Assembly (NCBI RefSeq): GCF_000769115.1
Contig: NZ_JQZV01000005.1
Span: 1 to 64,000, forward strand
DNA: 64,000 nucleotides
Origin: Porphyromonas canoris
GTDB lineage: Bacteria > Bacteroidota > Bacteroidia > Bacteroidales > Porphyromonadaceae
Direction of reading: 5' to 3'
In this document: one piece after another, positions 41,790 through 50,018 of the stretch
How positions within the stretch are numbered: position 1 is the stretch's first letter
Layout: each line of letters begins with the position of its first letter
Notes under the pieces: model-generated
The model's input: only the letters and a program-made list of their open reading frames with translations
Databases searched by the model: none
Told to the model about the DNA's origin: nothing
Made by a program: the position numbers and the translations under genes

Positions 41790-41797
41790 TATCTTTG
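41790..41797 (+). promoter_or_regulatory. -7 box of the carotenoid operon
   Basis: TATCTTTG matches TAnnTTTG, 79 nt before the crtB start codon. A -33 TTTG is not clear. Confidence 0.4.
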
Positions 41798-41875: not shown

Positions 41876-42736
41876 ATGAAGACAACCAATGCCTCCAACT
41901 ATCGTAAGTACCGCATCTGCTCGTTTGAAATGAGTCGTGGTCTGACGAAAATGTATAGCACATCATTCTATTCGGCTTCCAGTCTTTTCTCCAAAGATAT
42001 ACGTCCTGCCATACACAGCATCTACGGTTTTGTTCGTATAGCCGATGAGATCGTGGACACCTTTCACGAGCACAACCAAAAGGAGTTGTTGGATCTCTTC
42101 GAAGAGTCTTATCATCTGGCACACAAGTATGGCATCAGCACGAATCCTATCCTTTATGCTTTTCAGCTGACGGTAAAGCAGTTCGGTATTCCGGAAGAAC
42201 ACATACAGGCATTCTTGGCGAGTATGCGTGCAGATCTCGAAAAGAAGGAGTACAAGACAGCAGAAGAGACGGCAAAGTACATCTACGGTTCGGCGGATGT
42301 CGTGGGTCTGATGTGTCTGAAAGTCTTTTGCAAGGGGGACGAGAAGCTGTTCAAGGAGTTGGAGCAACCGGCCATGAAGTTGGGTTCGGCATTTCAGAAG
42401 GTCAACTTTCTCAGGGATCTGAAAGACGACTGTTTCGGATTGGGGCGCACTTATTTCCCAAATCTCCGCATAGAGAGTTTCGATGAAGCCACGAAGATGG
42501 AGCTTGTAAAAGAGATCGAACAAGAGTTTGCCGAAGCCTACAAAGGCATACAGAAGCTCCCGGAAGATGCCCGGCTCGCCGTCCTCACCGCATATAAATA
42601 TTACAAAGGTCTGCTCAACAAGATAAAGAAAACCCCTGCGGACAAACTTCTTCAGACAAGGATCCGTGTCCCGGACTATCAGAAAGGGCTGCTTTTACTC
42701 TCTGCAATCATCAAAAACCGAATAAACATTCTATGA
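41876..42736 (+). CDS. crtB: Phytoene/squalene synthase family, probably phytoene synthase
   Basis: 286 residues from ATG 41876; an in-frame upstream start at 41795 would add an unrelated 27-residue tail. The two aspartate-rich motifs for prenyl diphosphate binding are DEIVD (57-61) and NFLRDLKDD, followed by GRTYFP, as in trans-isoprenyl synthases. It should join two GGPP molecules into phytoene; squalene synthase is the alternative, but the operon with idi, a CruF-like protein and CrtI points to carotenoids. Its stop overlaps idi by 4 nt (ATGA). No GGPP synthase gene is in the window. Confidence 0.9.
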   Translation: MKTTNASNYRKYRICSFEMSRGLTKMYSTSFYSASSLFSKDIRPAIHSIYGFVRIADEIVDTFHEHNQKELLDLFEESYHLAHKYGISTNPILYAFQLTVKQFGIPEEHIQAFLASMRADLEKKEYKTAEETAKYIYGSADVVGLMCLKVFCKGDEKLFKELEQPAMKLGSAFQKVNFLRDLKDDCFGLGRTYFPNLRIESFDEATKMELVKEIEQEFAEAYKGIQKLPEDARLAVLTAYKYYKGLLNKIKKTPADKLLQTRIRVPDYQKGLLLLSAIIKNRINIL

Positions 42737-43296
42737 CTTCAAACAATACAGCAGATATGGTGGTCCTTGTGGATGCAGGCGACAACACGCTCGGCACTAT
42801 GGAAAAGATGGAAGCACACCGCAAGGGAGTGCTGCACAGAGCGGTATCCATACTGGTCTTTAACAACCGGAAAGAGTGGCTTCTGCATCGGAGAGCCCGG
42901 GAAAAATATCACGCCGGAGGGCTTTGGACCAATGCCTGTTGTACGCATCCGTTCCTGGAAGAGAGCTACGAAGATGCCGCTTGCAGGCGTATGATGGAAG
43001 AGATGGGGATAGAAGTGGAAGCGAAGAGACTTGTCCGGCTGTTCGACTTTACCTACACCGCATCTTTCGACAACGGGCTCACCGAACACGAATACGACCG
43101 AGTCTTTGCCTACATAACCGATACAGAGCCGGTTCCGAATCCTGACGAGGTCATGGATTGGAACTACTTGCCCCACGAAACATTAGACTCGGACATCCGC
43201 AACCATCCCGATCTTTACACCCCTTGGTTCAGGATCATTTACCAAAAAGCCATGGAGCATTCGGACAAGATAGAGGGCTGTTTCGAGAGAGGATAA
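42733..43296 (+). CDS. idi: Isopentenyl-diphosphate delta-isomerase, type I
   Basis: 187 residues. The nudix-type fold has the catalytic cysteine in TNACCTHP (about residue 70) and the glutamate in LTEHEYDRVF. It interconverts IPP and DMAPP, feeding GGPP formation for carotenoids. The gene overlaps crtB by 4 nt. Its stop codon lies inside the first unit of the 22-bp array that fills the gap to the next gene. The type I enzyme needs no flavin. Confidence 0.92.
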   Translation: MTSNNTADMVVLVDAGDNTLGTMEKMEAHRKGVLHRAVSILVFNNRKEWLLHRRAREKYHAGGLWTNACCTHPFLEESYEDAACRRMMEEMGIEVEAKRLVRLFDFTYTASFDNGLTEHEYDRVFAYITDTEPVPNPDEVMDWNYLPHETLDSDIRNHPDLYTPWFRIIYQKAMEHSDKIEGCFERG

Positions 43297-43410
43297 TTAC
43301 CAATCAAAAAAACGATAATTACTAAACTGAAAAACGGTAATTACTAAACTGAAAAATGGTAATTACTAAATTGAAGGATGATAATTACCATTTCCGAAAA
43401 CGATAAGCGA
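43293..43410 (+). repeat. 22-bp tandem array D (RTAATTAC cores)
   Basis: Cores ATAATTAC or GTAATTAC start at 43293, 43315, 43337, 43359 and 43381, exactly 22 bp apart, with a degenerate sixth at 43403. GTAATTAC is a perfect palindrome. Spacers are A-rich (CTAAACTGAAAAA type). The first unit contains the idi stop codon and the array occupies most of the 163-nt gap before the cruF-like gene. Confidence 0.85.
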
Positions 43411-43459
43411 AACAGAAAAAACAAGATATTTACAATCACTTTAGCAACCATAACAACCG

Positions 43460-44098
43460 ATGCAAAAACATAAAAAAGCAGATTGGCTAATCATGGCTCT
43501 CATCGCCATCTTCTACATCTTCGGTGCGCTCCAATTGGCTAACCCCGAAACCCGAACCCTATATACCGGGATGACACCTTGGGTTCTGCTCTTCTCCGTA
43601 CTATTCCTGGGGCTGTACGACAAAACCCCTAAAAGATCCGGGCTGCTGCTCTTCTCCCTCATCGTAGCAGTACTCAGCTTCGGCGTCGAAGTATGGGGAG
43701 TGGCAACGGGAGATGTGTTCGGAAGCTACTCTTACGGCAGTGAACTTGGAGTGAAGATAGCCGGAACGCCGCTGCTCATCGGTCTCAACTGGGTGCTGCT
43801 ACTCTACCTGAGCGCAGCCATATCAAGCTTCCTGCCACGTAACATCCTCTCTTGGATCATCCTGCCATCTATACTCATGGTCGGCTACGATATGGTTATG
43901 GAGCAAGTGGCACCACGTATGGACATGTGGTCGTGGGGCGGTGATGTAATCCCTGTTCAGAACTATCTCGTATGGGGAGTGCTTGCTCTGCTGTTTCATA
44001 CCCTGAGATACGTGATGAATATCACTGTCCGCAACAGAATGGCACTGTTTCTCTTCACCATCCAAGTCCTGTTCTTCCTCATCATTCTTATCGCATAA
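43460..44098 (+). CDS. Carotenoid biosynthesis membrane protein, CruF-like
   Basis: 212 residues, almost wholly hydrophobic with about six or seven helices. GVEVWGVATGDVFGSYSYG, then GVKIAGTPLLIGLNW and the YDMVMEQVAPRMDMW segment are features of the CruF/DUF422 family. Characterised members hydrate the terminal double bond of acyclic carotene ends without oxygen, giving a 1'-hydroxyl group. That hydroxyl could then carry a sugar added by the glycosyltransferase two genes downstream. The start is 163 nt after idi, beyond the array. Confidence 0.78.
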   Translation: MQKHKKADWLIMALIAIFYIFGALQLANPETRTLYTGMTPWVLLFSVLFLGLYDKTPKRSGLLLFSLIVAVLSFGVEVWGVATGDVFGSYSYGSELGVKIAGTPLLIGLNWVLLLYLSAAISSFLPRNILSWIILPSILMVGYDMVMEQVAPRMDMWSWGGDVIPVQNYLVWGVLALLFHTLRYVMNITVRNRMALFLFTIQVLFFLIILIA

Positions 44099-44099
44099 T

Positions 44100-44717
44100 A
44101 TGCTCGAAGCCCGACATCATCCCATCGTCTATCCCTTCTTTCAGTACTACACGGAGTATCTCATCCGGAGAAGATTCCATGCTGCCAAGATCATCGGGAC
44201 ATTCACGGACAGAGAGTTGCCTGTATTGCTCATAGCCAATCATATCGGATGGTGGGACGGCTTTTGGGCAATGTACCTGAAACGGAAAGTGTTCAAGCGA
44301 AAATTCTACTTCATGATGCAGGAAGATCAGCTGCTACGCTACCGCTTCTTCAACCGCACCGGAGCATTCTCCGTCAATAAAGGCAGCAGAGAGATAATCC
44401 GTTCTCTGGAATACGCCACACGGTTGCTCGAAGAGAAAGAGAATATGCTGCTGATCTATCCGCAAGGGAAACTGCAGTCCCTTTACCTATCCGAGTTCTC
44501 TTTTCAAAAGGGCATCGAACGCATCCTAAAAGATAAAAGAGAAAGCGTACAGGTGATCTTCTCCGCCAACCTTATAGATTATCTCGCCCATCCTAAGCCT
44601 ACGGTAACGATGTATATAGAAGAGTTTACCGGAGAGATGAGCCTCGACACTTTGGAAAGAGAGTATAACAGATTTTATGCCGACTGTCTCTCCCGACAGC
44701 TCCACACGGAAGAATGA
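44100..44717 (+). CDS. Lysophospholipid acyltransferase-family protein (possible carotenoid-glycoside acyltransferase)
   Basis: 205 residues. The catalytic HX4D motif is present as NHIGWWD (His48, Asp53), with NKGSREIIRS and YPQGKLQS as the later glycerol-phosphate acyltransferase motifs. No transmembrane segment is obvious. Its position directly after the cruF-like gene and before a GT2 gene recalls the acyltransferase steps (CruD, CrtO) that esterify carotenoid glycosides in other bacteria; the substrate is inferred from this context. It overlaps the next gene by 4 nt. Confidence 0.75.
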   Translation: MLEARHHPIVYPFFQYYTEYLIRRRFHAAKIIGTFTDRELPVLLIANHIGWWDGFWAMYLKRKVFKRKFYFMMQEDQLLRYRFFNRTGAFSVNKGSREIIRSLEYATRLLEEKENMLLIYPQGKLQSLYLSEFSFQKGIERILKDKRESVQVIFSANLIDYLAHPKPTVTMYIEEFTGEMSLDTLEREYNRFYADCLSRQLHTEE

Positions 44718-45823
44718 TCGAGTATATCGCATACGCCGTTTTCGGATTCGCTCTGCTGAGATTCCTGATAGCATTCCTCAACATGCTCTTCCTCGAAACT
44801 CTGCCCAAGCATCCGCGCATCGGAGAGGCAGAGAGAGGGAAAGTCTCCATCCTTATACCTGCTCGCAACGAAGCCGACAACATCTCACACCTTCTCTCCG
44901 ACCTTAAAAGAGTAAACGATGAAAGCATCCGAGAGATCATCGTACTGGACGATCAGTCCGAAGACAACACTGCCGAGATCGTTTCTCATTACTGCCGGGA
45001 CGATGCCCGTCTGCGTCTGATCTCCTCCTCATCGCTACCCGAAAGATGGCTTGGAAAGAATCACGCCTGCCACTCTCTCGCCAAAGAAGCCGAAGGAGAC
45101 TTCTTCCTCTTCCTCGATGCCGATGTTCGCTTAGAGCCTGGATTCGTAGACAGAGCCGTGGCATACTGTCAGAAGAAAAAGACAGACCTCTTCACCGTCT
45201 TTCCTACACAGGATATGGAGACATGGGCAGAGAAAGTTTCCGTTCCCAATATGCACATCATTCTACTCACGTTGCTGTTTCTGCCGCTTGTGAGACTATC
45301 ATGCTTTTCATCGCTATCGGCGGCAAACGGACAGTGCATGCTATTCAGACGAAACGCCTACAAAGCTCTCCTCCCCCACTATACCTATCGCCACAGCAAA
45401 GCGGAAGATATTGAGATCGCCCGATATTTCAAGAGAAAACGGCGCAAAGTGGCGTGTCTTACCGGAATAAAAAGCATCCACTGCAAGATGTACAGCGATC
45501 TTCAAGGAGCACTGGACGGATTTTCCAAGAACGTTACCTACTTCTTCGGCGGAGCCAATGCCTATCTCCCTGCTCTGCTGTTCTGGTCTGTAACCACCTT
45601 CGGCATCGTTCCTCTTCTGCTCTCATCCTCACCTATCTTTGCGCTGTACTATATCGGCATCGTCATCCTTACACGAGTGATGGTCTCTCTGACTGCCGGA
45701 CAGTCTCCCTTCTACAATATACTGCTCATCATTCCTCAGCAGATCATGCTTGGGGCATTCATTCTGAAATCGTGGATCAATAAGCAACGCCGGGAGTTCA
45801 GATGGAAAGGTCGTACTCTATAA
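44714..45823 (+). CDS. GT2 glycosyltransferase (possible carotenoid glucosyltransferase)
   Basis: 369 residues. An N-terminal membrane segment is followed by a GT-A domain with VSILIPARNEADNI, DDQSEDNT, LPERWLGKNHAC and the metal-binding LDADVRLEPG; acceptor-side motifs and at least two hydrophobic segments lie at the C terminus. The layout resembles carotenoid glycosyltransferases of the CruC/CrtQ kind, and the cruF-like gene two places upstream would supply the hydroxyl acceptor. Activity on another lipid cannot be excluded. The start overlaps the acyltransferase stop. Confidence 0.78.
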   Translation: MIEYIAYAVFGFALLRFLIAFLNMLFLETLPKHPRIGEAERGKVSILIPARNEADNISHLLSDLKRVNDESIREIIVLDDQSEDNTAEIVSHYCRDDARLRLISSSSLPERWLGKNHACHSLAKEAEGDFFLFLDADVRLEPGFVDRAVAYCQKKKTDLFTVFPTQDMETWAEKVSVPNMHIILLTLLFLPLVRLSCFSSLSAANGQCMLFRRNAYKALLPHYTYRHSKAEDIEIARYFKRKRRKVACLTGIKSIHCKMYSDLQGALDGFSKNVTYFFGGANAYLPALLFWSVTTFGIVPLLLSSSPIFALYYIGIVILTRVMVSLTAGQSPFYNILLIIPQQIMLGAFILKSWINKQRREFRWKGRTL

Positions 45824-45836
45824 ACAGCTAAAACAG

Positions 45837-46580
45837 ATGAAACACTTCACTCTACTATTCCTCCTGCTGCTCTTCTCTCTTCCTCTTTCGCTATCCGCAT
45901 CGGAAAAGGAGAGCATCTACAACGCATACATATATAATAATATGGAGTCGTGGAAGCGTGTCATAGACCGGATGCACACCATTAAAGAGAAAAACACAGA
46001 GCAGGAACTGGAGCTTCTCAACTTTGAATACGGCTACATCGGATGGTGTATAGGCAATAAGAAAAACAGCCTTGCCAAAACCTACATGAAGAGGATGGAA
46101 GAGAGGATGAACAGGCTCAAGAGCCGGCAGGTACGCCCTGCTCTGATGCTTGCATACGAGTCCGCCTATCTCGGATACCAGGTAGGACTGAACAAGTTCA
46201 AGGCTCCGTTCTTGGGACAAAAGAGTATATCGGCTGCCGAAAAGTCTGTAAAACAAGACCCCGACAATGCTTTCGGATACGTGCAGCTCGGCAATATAGA
46301 CTTCTATCGCCCTGCACTCTTCGGTGGTTCCAAGCCCAATGCTCTCAAGCACTACCTTACGGCAGAGCGGCTATACCTCTCGCAGAAAGAGAGCAATGCA
46401 GAAGCCAAAGACTGGAATCTGCTTGCACTCTGGATACAGATAGCCCAAACCTATGACGCACTGGATGACGTCAAACGCGCAGACGAGTATTACAAAAAAA
46501 TATTGATGGCAGAACCAAACTTCAAATGGGTGAAGGATGAGCTCTACTCCAAATTCAAACAAAAGCACAATATATCATGA
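45837..46580 (+). CDS. Secreted TPR-like protein of the carotenoid operon
   Basis: 247 residues with a signal peptide ending near LSLSAS. Helical repeats follow (AEKSVKQDPDNAFGYVQLGNIDFY and ADEYYKKILMAEPNFKWV). It starts 14 nt after the glycosyltransferase and overlaps crtI by 4 nt, so it is expressed with the pathway although no enzyme motif is present. A scaffold or carotenoid-transfer role is possible but is only an inference from location. Confidence 0.75.
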   Translation: MKHFTLLFLLLLFSLPLSLSASEKESIYNAYIYNNMESWKRVIDRMHTIKEKNTEQELELLNFEYGYIGWCIGNKKNSLAKTYMKRMEERMNRLKSRQVRPALMLAYESAYLGYQVGLNKFKAPFLGQKSISAAEKSVKQDPDNAFGYVQLGNIDFYRPALFGGSKPNALKHYLTAERLYLSQKESNAEAKDWNLLALWIQIAQTYDALDDVKRADEYYKKILMAEPNFKWVKDELYSKFKQKHNIS

Positions 46581-48067
46581 ATAAAAAAGTAACAATTATA
46601 GGCACAGGTCTTGGTGGCTTGGCAAGCGGCCTCCTGCTCTCCAAAAGAGGCTTCCAAGTATCTTTCATCGAAAAAAATAGCGAGCCGGGAGGACGTCTCA
46701 ACCGGATTCGGAAAGATGGTTTTACCTTCGACACCGGTCCCAGCTTCTTTAGTATGTCTTATGTATTCAAGGAGTTTCTGGACAAGTGCGGTGTTGAGAT
46801 GCCTTTTGAATTTGTAGAACTCGATCCGCTCTACTCGGTAAACTTCCGAGGGGATGATAAGACCTATCACCTATACAAGGATATAAAACGACTTGCCGAG
46901 CAGTTCGAGGGAGTGGAGCCGGACTTTGAGAACAAAATGAGGCGGTATCTCAAAAAATCGAGAGCGCTGTTTGAAGACACATTTGACATTGTCATCCGCA
47001 ACAACTTCGACAATATGTTCGACTACATCACCACGTTGATGCAGGTCAATCCACGCCATATACCGGTTCTTCTCAAGACATTCTGGCAACACGTTACGGA
47101 GCATTTCTCTTCAAAAGAGGCACGTCAGATCATCTCGCTGGTAGCATTCTTTCTCGGTCGCACGCCTTTCGACACCATGGCGATATACAGCCTTCTCTCC
47201 CACACAGAGTTTTGCCATGATGGCTATTACAATGTAAAAGGAGGGATGTACAACATCGTGCAGGGGCTGGTATCGGAGCTGGAAAAGTCGGGAGCCACAT
47301 TCCGGTTCGACACAGAGATTAAAGATGTCTCTTTCAGTGGAGACAAACTCACAGCCGTGATAGATAGAGAGGGCAACAGATATGAGTCCGACATTTTTCT
47401 TTGCAACGCAGACGCCGCACTGTTCAGAGGAAGAGTGTTGCACCGAAAAGCGTACAGCGAGCAAAAGTTGGCTCAAAAAGAGTGGACCATGGGCTATCTG
47501 ACGTTCTACATCGGTATTAAAGGAAAGCTGCCCCGGCTCGATCAGCACAACTACTATCTCGGCACAAACTATGAGGAGTATGCACACAATATCCTCAAAG
47601 ATCCCGATACGCTGCAAAAGCCATACTACTACGTCAATGTCATATCCAAGCACAACGACAGCTGTGCCCCTGAAGGATGCGAGAGCCTGTTCTTTGTATG
47701 TCCCGTACCCAACCTGCAATACAAAAAAGATTGGAGCGATAGAGATGAGATCGTGGACAGCATCCTTGAGGACTTCTCCAAGAGAATAGGAGAAGATATA
47801 CCCTCTATGGTGGTGTCGCGTACCATCTATACGCCCAAAGAGTGGGAGGAGAGGTTCAACCTCTATCAGGGTAGCGGTCTCGGACTATCCCACAAGATGA
47901 TGCAGATAGGTGGATTCCGCCCGGCGAATTTTGATGAAAAGTTGTTCAATCTGTTCTACGTAGGAGCTTCCACGATACCGGGTGCCGGACTGCCGATGGC
48001 TGTTATCAGCGCAGATTTGGCTTGCCGGCGGATAGAAGCTTTTGCAAACGAACAAAAGGGCAAGTAG
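46577..48067 (+). CDS. crtI: Phytoene desaturase CrtI
   Basis: 496 residues, the usual size for CrtI. The N-terminal dinucleotide-binding motif is GTGLGGLASGLLLSKRG with EKNSEPGGR following, and the C-terminal family signature GASTIPGAGLPMAV is intact. It introduces double bonds into phytoene, using FAD and no molecular oxygen as a direct substrate, giving neurosporene or lycopene-type carotenes. Only one desaturase gene and no cyclase are present here. Last gene of the seven-gene operon. Confidence 0.93.
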   Translation: MNKKVTIIGTGLGGLASGLLLSKRGFQVSFIEKNSEPGGRLNRIRKDGFTFDTGPSFFSMSYVFKEFLDKCGVEMPFEFVELDPLYSVNFRGDDKTYHLYKDIKRLAEQFEGVEPDFENKMRRYLKKSRALFEDTFDIVIRNNFDNMFDYITTLMQVNPRHIPVLLKTFWQHVTEHFSSKEARQIISLVAFFLGRTPFDTMAIYSLLSHTEFCHDGYYNVKGGMYNIVQGLVSELEKSGATFRFDTEIKDVSFSGDKLTAVIDREGNRYESDIFLCNADAALFRGRVLHRKAYSEQKLAQKEWTMGYLTFYIGIKGKLPRLDQHNYYLGTNYEEYAHNILKDPDTLQKPYYYVNVISKHNDSCAPEGCESLFFVCPVPNLQYKKDWSDRDEIVDSILEDFSKRIGEDIPSMVVSRTIYTPKEWEERFNLYQGSGLGLSHKMMQIGGFRPANFDEKLFNLFYVGASTIPGAGLPMAVISADLACRRIEAFANEQKGK

Positions 48068-48082: not shown

Positions 48083-48300
48083 ATCAAGGCTTTCATAATT
48101 CGTCTATAAGGGAATAAAAAAGCATCTTAACGGCTATAAAACTCTGCTTAAACAGATTCAAAACCAAGCATCAAGACTTGAATGGCAAAAATCAAGCTTT
48201 GAAAAGTACCCATCAAGGCATGATCTCTGCAGATCGTGCCTTGATGCCATAAAAGATACAGGATAAAAGCATCTTTTATACCTGTTCAAAAAATCTTGCG
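48083..48300 (+). repeat. Interspersed element C, divergent copy 3
   Basis: Cores TCAAGACTTGA (48171), TCAAGCTTTGA (48192), TCAAGGCATGA (48213) and TCGTGCCTTGA (48234) are spaced exactly 21 bp. A further TCAAGGCTTTC occurs at 48084. The landmark CCTGTTCAAAA near 48281 matches the left landmark of copies 1 and 2, here on the other side of the array, so parts are rearranged. It fills the convergent gap between crtI and the rclC-like gene, with no gene inside. Confidence 0.7.
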
Positions 48301-48413: not shown

Positions 48414-49040
48414 TTATCGTTTCACGATTCTGCGAGCTGCATCCCAAGCCACGAGCAGTCCGCCGGCACTCATGATAATATCCTTGATAACAAGCCTTCC
48501 TACACCCGACAAGTATGGAAAGCCATAATGGGGCGTCGGTAAGTCTCCACCCAGATTAGGAACCCAAGACTCCGGAGTTGTTATAAGGAAAGAAAGCGTA
48601 ACGATGGACATACCAAAGGTGAGTAATCCTCCTATCAGTCCGACCTTGGGAAACCAAATACCCAAGAGGACAAAAAGCCCTATGAGAACAATCATCGTAC
48701 CAAGACCATAAGAGAAAGGATAGGTACCGTTAACCTTGTGCCAGTCTATATTCTTCTGCACCATCTTTCCTTCCGGATTTTTATGCAGTGTGTATTCCTT
48801 GACCATCTCTCCTTTATCATTCTCTACATAAGTATTGGACTTCGTGTAGAAGAAACTCATGAAAGGGCTGTTGCTTACAAAGTGCACGATACCATCGGCT
48901 TCGTATTGGCAAGCTTTAAGCCCTCCGATCCACGCCATAACCACAAAGATGGATATACGCATGAAGTTAAAGAATGGGCGCTCCAGGTTCAGAATAATTT
49001 TCCCGGATGTCTGAAAGATCTGTTCCATCAACTTTTTCAT
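48414..49040 (-). CDS. RclC/YkgB-like membrane protein (DUF417)
   Basis: 208 residues with four hydrophobic segments. Conserved features of the family are present: WIGGLKACQYEADGIV, SNSPFMSFFY, FSYGLG, TLSFLITTPESWVP and GFPYLSGVGRLVIKD. In Escherichia coli the related RclC belongs to the reactive-chlorine response under an AraC-type regulator. An AraC-family gene lies 138 nt upstream on the same strand, so a stress-response pair is plausible. Transport or redox function is unknown. Confidence 0.85.
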   Translation of the reverse strand: MKKLMEQIFQTSGKIILNLERPFFNFMRISIFVVMAWIGGLKACQYEADGIVHFVSNSPFMSFFYTKSNTYVENDKGEMVKEYTLHKNPEGKMVQKNIDWHKVNGTYPFSYGLGTMIVLIGLFVLLGIWFPKVGLIGGLLTFGMSIVTLSFLITTPESWVPNLGGDLPTPHYGFPYLSGVGRLVIKDIIMSAGGLLVAWDAARRIVKR

Positions 49041-49178
49041 ATCAACTTATTCATTTTACTATTTACACTGCAAAGTTCCGGCTTTTCAACAACGCAGGGA
49101 ATGGATAAACATGATATTAACATGGATAGATTTGACACCCATCCGGTAAAAAGCCATACGAAAAAGATTTTCCGGTAT

Positions 49179-50018
49179 TCAGTGAGGAGGTTGAGGAGGA
49201 GTAATGATGGTGATACCGACTTCATCCCTGAAGTGCTTCGGCGAAAGCCCTGTTGCCTTTTTGAAGTAACGGCTGAAGTAAAACTCGTCTTGGAAGTTCA
49301 GCATCAGTGCAATCTCTTTTATGCTCTTGTCCGTAAGGTGAAGAAGCCTTTTGGCGGCGATGATAACCCGGTCCTGTATCAATTGCGAGGGAGTTTTTCC
49401 AAATGCCTGCTTGCTCTTTCTACTCAATACTTCGGAAGAGATACCCACTTCACGGGCATAAAAAAGCACTCTCCTCTCCTCCAGATGATGCTTCTCCAAG
49501 AGCTGCTCGAACAGGAGTGCCAGTCTGTCCGTAACACTGTTCAGCTGCCCCTCCAAAGCATCTTTCTGTCTGCTGCACAAGGCAAGCAGAAGCTGGAGAT
49601 AGGTTTTGATGATAGAGGAAGTAAAAGGAAGCTCCTCTTTGTCCCGGTGCTGCTCTTCTGCAATCCGGTCTGTCAGCTCGTAAAGATAGTGCAGCAGAGA
49701 GGGCGAGACGCTCACGTAGGGTTTCAGATAGGCGTTGTTGAACAACAATCCATTGCAAGCCACCTCATATTTATGGTACTCGATACAGTAAAAGTCGCTA
49801 TGAAAAGAGAGTTGTCGATAGCTATCAGGGGGCTTTGACCATACCAAACTCTGGTAAGGTGAGAGGAATAACACCGTGTTGGCTTCCGCATCGTAATCCG
49901 TACCATCCACCATGAATGTAGAACCCTGCTCCAGAAAAACAATGGTGTAAAGAGAGGAAGTAAAACTACTTTCCGGGATATTCGGCGGAAAATCTTGTAT
50001 AGAGATTAACTGAGACAT
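49179..50018 (-). CDS. AraC-family transcriptional regulator
   Basis: 279 residues. The N-terminal cupin-like sensing domain (about 1-150) is followed by two helix-turn-helix motifs in the last 100 residues (VGISSEVLSRKSKQAFGKTP, then IALMLNFQDEFYFSRYFKKATG). The N-terminal half has two cysteines close together (FYCIEYHKYEVAC), which could sense oxidants as in RclR; that is speculation. The rclC-like gene downstream is the obvious target. Confidence 0.9.
   Translation of the reverse strand: MSQLISIQDFPPNIPESSFTSSLYTIVFLEQGSTFMVDGTDYDAEANTVLFLSPYQSLVWSKPPDSYRQLSFHSDFYCIEYHKYEVACNGLLFNNAYLKPYVSVSPSLLHYLYELTDRIAEEQHRDKEELPFTSSIIKTYLQLLLALCSRQKDALEGQLNSVTDRLALLFEQLLEKHHLEERRVLFYAREVGISSEVLSRKSKQAFGKTPSQLIQDRVIIAAKRLLHLTDKSIKEIALMLNFQDEFYFSRYFKKATGLSPKHFRDEVGITIITPPQPPH

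Follow-up and report, generated by a model that had tools for sequence, protein, structure and literature searches.

Organization of the operon

The stretch of DNA analysed here (the window) spans 64,000 nt of the mouth bacterium Porphyromonas canoris (contig NZ_JQZV01000005.1) and contains seven intact open reading frames, all on the + strand at positions 41876–48067, in the order crtB-idi-cruF-acyltransferase (AT)-glycosyltransferase family 2 (GT2)-tetratricopeptide repeat (TPR)-crtI. The identity, order and position of these genes had been proposed in an initial annotation, and Pfam and NCBIfam matches back every label. The pathway itself is of a known kind; what is new is the place of the TPR gene in the operon and the kinship of its product to the haemophore HusA. 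We assign a probability of about 0.62 to the reading that the operon would specify both a periplasmic carrier and the enzymes for an acyclic C40 carotenoid acyl-glycoside, with each reaction predicted from the genes present.

The crtB gene (41876–42736) encodes a member of the phytoene synthase family (SQS_PSY; PF00494, 173 bits) with both Asp-rich motifs (DEIVD and DLKDD) and 79% identity to its counterpart in P. gingivicanis; it scored 74–106 bits against the equivalog models for C40 CrtB, relative to cut-offs of 480–550. The idi product (42733–43296) matched type-1 isopentenyl-diphosphate isomerases of the Nudix type (NF002995, 161 bits, cut-off 127; TIGR02150, 124 bits, cut-off 105.8). The third gene (43460–44098) was placed as a distant member of the carotenoid 1,2-hydratases (PF04240, 74.5 bits, cut-off 25) and is classed as CruF-like only, the CruF equivalog cut-offs having been missed (TIGR03460, 56.9 of 154.7 bits; NF045693, 23.2 of 400; NF041333, 19.5 of 300). 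It is followed by a PlsC-type AT with an HX4D motif (NHIGWWD; 44100–44717; PF01553, 36.5 bits, cut-off 23) and a GT2 with a DAD motif (44714–45823; PF00535, 79.6 bits), for which the closest curated models were CruG and HpnB (NF045692 CruG, 121.6 bits, under the cut-off of 600). Since the hydratase, GT2 and CrtB scored below curated equivalog cut-offs, all three are designated by the suffix 'like' only. The TPR gene (45837–46580) encodes a 247-residue exported HusA-like protein with a signal peptide and a predicted 12-helix solenoid fold, and crtI (46577–48067) a desaturase of the phytoene desaturase family matched over residues 5–488 (TIGR02734, 355.9 bits, cut-off 238.1).

The genes had been described as packed by 4-nt overlaps. 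This holds at three of the six junctions (crtB/idi, AT/GT2 and TPR/crtI), and the remaining three are gaps of 1 nt (cruF/AT), 13 nt (GT2/TPR) and 163 nt (idi/cruF). The largest gap is filled by a 22-bp AT-rich tandem repeat of 4.4 copies (43292–43388, + strand). At the same position many relatives have a lycopene cyclase or lipocalin gene, and in two relatives (L037 and P. gingivicanis, L148) the gap is roughly 30–50 nt by tblastn coordinates. Among the Porphyromonas compared, the repeat-enlarged gap was seen only in the source species.

Pathway content of the genome and predicted product

The genome (2,197,557 bp, 14 contigs, mean G+C content about 44.7%, with the window as contig 10) has a single SQS_PSY gene, the crtB above. 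The combination of this single gene with a full-length CrtI-family desaturase indicates a carotenoid rather than a hopanoid or squalene operon, as initially annotated, and the HpnCDE route was rejected because HpnC and HpnD would require two SQS_PSY genes. Two polyprenyl synthases were found. The residue five positions before the DDxxD motif distinguishes short-chain from long-chain prenyl synthases; it is Phe, before an insert-free motif, in the short-chain-type enzyme and Ala in the long-chain-type enzyme. Neither of the two main lycopene cyclase families (PF18916 and PF05834) was found in the whole genome; a cyclase encoded elsewhere was therefore rejected and an acyclic product is expected. 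Likewise, the genome has no member of the CrtW/CrtZ-type oxygenase families (PF00487 and PF04116), so that an oxygen-free route is possible. These searches agree with the earlier predictions of a cyclase-free, oxygen-avoiding pathway, and also supply the candidate source of geranylgeranyl diphosphate (GGPP) that had been left to a genome check. Synthase, desaturase, hydratase, glycosyltransferase and acyltransferase genes thus occur together with no cyclase, the combination taken to mark an acyclic carotenoid acyl-glycoside cluster.

In the proposed pathway, the short-chain prenyl synthase encoded elsewhere would supply GGPP, with Idi balancing isopentenyl and dimethylallyl diphosphate. CrtB would then form phytoene, and CrtI would desaturate it to lycopene. 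The CruF-like hydratase would add water at a psi end without O2, giving a tertiary hydroxyl to which the GT2 enzyme would attach a sugar, and the PlsC-type enzyme would esterify a fatty acid to that sugar, both at the inner membrane. Glycosylation and acylation of the product are deduced from the gene families.

Conservation of the cluster and linkage of the TPR gene

A survey of relatives had been suggested for the TPR gene, and two were carried out. Across 393 Bacteroidales genomes, close CrtI orthologues (at least 43% identity) were tabulated in 67, and the TPR protein was found in 126. In 48 of the 67, no more than 12 kb separated the TPR gene from crtI, whereas in 12 it was elsewhere in the genome and in seven there was no match. 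In the linked genomes it was either directly 5' of crtI or about 4–5 kb away in a divergent arrangement. The co-occurrence of TPR and crtI had an odds ratio of 34 (p about 2e-27, relatedness not being corrected for). Named genomes were also scanned for clusters with CrtI as the query and the TPR position was counted by hidden Markov model (HMM). A TPR homologue was immediately upstream of crtI in 70 of the 79 named loci with enough sequence, nearly all in Bacteroidota and mostly in Bacteroidales.

Three architectures were recognized. The first, type A, is crtB-(idi)-(crtZ)-(crtYcd or lipocalin)-cruF-AT-GT2-TPR-crtI. The second, type B, is divergent, with TPR-GT2-AT-(crtW)-cruF-CrtD-like facing crtI-crtB-(crtYcd). 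The third, type C, is crtB-idi-TPR-crtI, in which the TPR gene is kept with the core genes even where cruF, AT and GT2 are not local (loci L066–L069). The TPR gene thus remains among carotenoid genes across several rearrangements. The cyclase-free form seen in the window was also present in metagenome-assembled genomes of Proteiniphilum and Fermentimonas. The gene order of the operon is not due to chance, as it is shared by other Porphyromonas and by dozens of Bacteroidales, and the TPR gene as an unrelated passenger was rejected given its order-wide linkage to carotenoid genes. According to the initial annotation, no role in such pathways is known for the TPR protein; this stands for the literature searched, but the protein is no orphan, being conserved in Bacteroidales carotenoid clusters and related to HusA.

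Two variations in cluster content were also observed. A Lipocalin_2 gene, possibly for a binder of hydrophobic ligands, is located where other clusters have the cyclase gene, flanked by idi/crtB and cruF, in four loci (L042, 4175–4708; also L045, L048 and L072). One set of clusters has an additional gene of approximately 440 codons separating GT2 from the TPR gene (L150, L153, L156–L159 and L162).

Within Porphyromonas, the TPR marker was present in three of the 12 species searched. The closest named clusters by CrtI identity were those of Porphyromonas sp. S15M_Sa_21 (88%), P. gingivicanis JCM 15907 (84%) and P. circumdentaria (76%). In P. circumdentaria ATCC 51356 (L149, 5876–9458) the operon is decayed: crtB is truncated and continues directly into GT2, with idi, cruF and AT absent, and GT2-TPR-crtI is retained.

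Downstream of the operon in the window, an inverted repeat with a 16-bp stem (48211–48246), 144 nt 3' of crtI, is a candidate transcript end. A DUF417 protein and an AraC-type regulator are encoded beyond it at 48414–50018 on the − strand, convergent with crtI, and size-matched genes are also found 3' of crtI in L147 and L148. A promoter-like TAnnTTTG site at 41790 was not used as evidence, as the window has 26 such sites.

Fold and family of the TPR protein

The AlphaFold2 model of the TPR protein is a 12-helix solenoid with a mean predicted local distance difference test (pLDDT) score of 94. Apart from its signal peptide, the protein lacks membrane segments. Among 34 aligned homologues, 33 had a hydrophobic N-terminus and none had a lipobox or a later membrane segment. 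A family profile matched HusA of Porphyromonas gingivalis (PDB 6bqs) with E=2.1e-9, and a profile limited to the segment outside the canonical C-terminal TPR matched it at E=2.8e-9 over 107 residues. HusA was detected by profiles only, a single-sequence phmmer search of the PDB not finding it. In Foldseek, 6bqs ranked third, with template modelling (TM) scores of 0.57 and 0.68 normalized by query and target respectively, and no other full-length natural protein scored higher among the first matches; designed TPR proteins scored higher by summing repeats, and these matches indicate a TPR-like fold only. By profile and modelled fold outside the generic TPR motif, the protein is classed as a member of the HusA-like family.

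A second branch of this family was found in other Bacteroidota orders, often beside proteins of approximately 750 residues and winged-helix regulators; those of the large neighbours that were checked were TonB-dependent receptors. This receptor-linked branch matched 6bqs at 1.4e-17, and hhalign showed homology between the two branches across 223 columns (2.3e-46). In a tree of 91 rows the receptor-linked branch split off with a Shimodaira–Hasegawa-like approximate likelihood ratio test (SH-aLRT) support of 99, and the carotenoid-linked proteins of type A grouped with a support of 98, with some rows lacking carotenoid neighbours among them. Loci with a HusA-like TPR gene, often with a TonB-dependent receptor and an HTH_34 regulator (L130, L133, L135 and L138–L146), represent possible HusAB-like uptake systems. 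Lone HusA-like TPR genes were also seen in cluster-free genomes, beside uvrB for the family of the window protein (L077 and L078) or beside prmA (L093, L094, L246, L249 and L259).

Conservation of the HusA groove positions

HusA holds haem in a hydrophobic groove, with contributions to binding from L123, V124, W130 and Y164; docking also places the ligand in contact with M116, L122, P126, L157, Q160 and several Ser residues (PMC6173696). An HMM alignment reproduced the HusA numbering, with an offset of +21 checked on the named residues. In the carotenoid-linked family the 13 HusA groove positions were more conserved than the remaining positions (mean top-residue frequency 0.74 vs 0.51, p=0.0004), and the HusA placement of the groove was the best for conservation of 165 slid placements. 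The ligand-stacking Y164 of HusA corresponds to Y157 in the TPR protein, a position occupied by Tyr in 26, Phe in four and His in four of 34 sequences. It is the only one of the four porphyrin-binding residues to be kept: L123, V124, W130 and Y164 correspond to G117, L118, A123 and Y157, of which V124 to L118 is conservative, and M116 is replaced by A110. Because the groove positions are conserved but the bulky HusA residues M116, L123 and W130 have become Ala or Gly, the alignment suggests that selection has maintained the groove with an altered lining that leaves more room.

Proposed function and alternative explanations

These observations lead us to suggest tentatively that the TPR protein binds or traffics carotenoid in the periplasm, both the ligand and the transport role being extrapolated from the family and the linkage. 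The exported protein would hold the polyene, or the glycoside ester, in its concave groove, much as its relative HusA accommodates a conjugated ligand that is flat and hydrophobic, and may shield the pigment or carry it across the periplasm away from the inner membrane.

Several findings weigh against this proposal or against the pathway on which it depends. HusA was reported as unable to bind linear tetrapyrroles (PMC6173696), and three of its groove residues are replaced as described above. Nine of the 79 named clusters lack the TPR gene, which is thus not strictly required and is helpful rather than essential. TPR homologues also occur beside prmA, uvrB, TonB receptors or other genes in genomes with no cluster, and the family is therefore not carotenoid-only. 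The hydratase, GT2 and AT fall short of curated equivalog cut-offs. Finally, an open-licence literature search for crt-gene carotenoids in Bacteroidales and Porphyromonadaceae returned nothing relevant, and no description of a carotenoid pigment of these species was found in it.

The alternative that survives best, although rather unlikely, is that, instead of carrying a ligand, the TPR protein acts in the periplasm as a protein–protein scaffold for the membrane-bound tailoring enzymes or helps to assemble them. Peptides are the usual partners of TPR folds, and the TPR gene is translated beside GT2 and crtI and stays with both. Against a scaffold are the concentration of conservation at the ligand-binding positions of HusA and the presence of the gene in type C loci, which have no GT2 or AT nearby. 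It is more doubtful still that the protein has remained a porphyrin or haem binder, produced together with the carotenoid in a single response to photo-oxidation or for the handling of haem. The HusA-like family, the retained Y157 and the ability of the likely host to make its own protoporphyrin (PMC4700951) are in keeping with such a role, but many free-living Bacteroidales have the gene linked to those for carotenoids, haem-binding contributors W130 and L123 of HusA have become Ala and Gly, and no TonB receptor adjoins the TPR gene in the carotenoid clusters.

With regard to the product, we consider a C30 pigment, of the kind represented by staphyloxanthin and the Planococcus pathway, improbable; the synthase would in that case form squalene or C30 diapophytoene. 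CrtB does score slightly higher with HpnD (117 bits) than with the C40 CrtB models (106 bits), with no model reaching its cut-off, and Planococcus combines a CruF-like hydratase, glycosyltransferase and acyltransferase with a C30 chain (PMC8502411). Nevertheless, the closest models to CrtI are C40 desaturases, and we infer a C40 chain because CrtYcd, CrtZ or CrtW, all familiar from C40 carotenoid pathways, are encoded in orthologous clusters; the single SQS_PSY gene again speaks against an HpnC/HpnD pair. It is similarly improbable that the Porphyromonas operon is a relic, whether silent or in decay, as the scarcity of the TPR marker in the genus and the decay in P. circumdentaria are set against seven intact frames in the window and two relatives at 65–88% protein identity.

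As far as we are aware, little has been established about how Gram-negative bacteria deliver carotenoid glycolipids to the membrane in which they end up, and a dedicated periplasmic carotenoid carrier was not found in the literature searched. A conserved, exported, groove-bearing protein in carotenoid operons narrows the question of carotenoid transport to a single gene and a soluble protein, and links a haemophore family to pigment biology. By gene content, Porphyromonas, a genus known for its haem-based black pigment, also includes species with a complete carotenoid pathway.

Comparison with known systems

The predicted product resembles the salinixanthin-type acyl glucosides of Rhodothermus and Salinibacter, made by CrtB, CrtI, CrtY, CrtO, CruC and CruD, in being a Bacteroidota-type carotenoid whose tertiary hydroxyl bears glucose and a fatty acid, and in the presence of glycosyltransferase and acyltransferase genes (PMC5822342). 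Those carotenoids are, however, monocyclic and ketolated by oxygen-dependent enzymes, whereas no cyclase or ketolase was found in the genome carrying the operon; cruC is also unlinked in those species and a HusA-like gene is not reported there (PMC5822342). The Planococcus pathway, crtM-crtNa-crtNb-cruF-GT-AT, likewise passes through a CruF-like hydratase and then a glycosyltransferase, with functions shown in E. coli, and a putative acyltransferase to an acyclic carotenoid (PMC8502411). It differs in its C30 backbone and its two to three CrtN desaturases, with neither idi nor a TPR gene reported (PMC8502411).

For the TPR protein, the closest known system is the haemophore HusA of P. gingivalis (PG_2227, PDB 6bqs and 6crl; PMC6173696). 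Both are exported, all-helical TPR-like proteins sharing the signature YxPxxFGGxK and the stacking Tyr, with homology over about 107 to 220 residues. HusA binds porphyrins and works with the TonB receptor HusB, whereas the window protein is encoded in a carotenoid operon, with no HusB-type TonB-dependent receptor in it or directly beside it, and has Ala or Gly in place of three HusA groove residues. HusA is also closer to the receptor-linked branch, and the window protein falls outside that branch. A possible, still tentative, synthesis is that one fold would serve porphyrin uptake in one branch of the family and dedicated binding or trafficking of carotenoid acyl-glycosides in the Bacteroidales branch.

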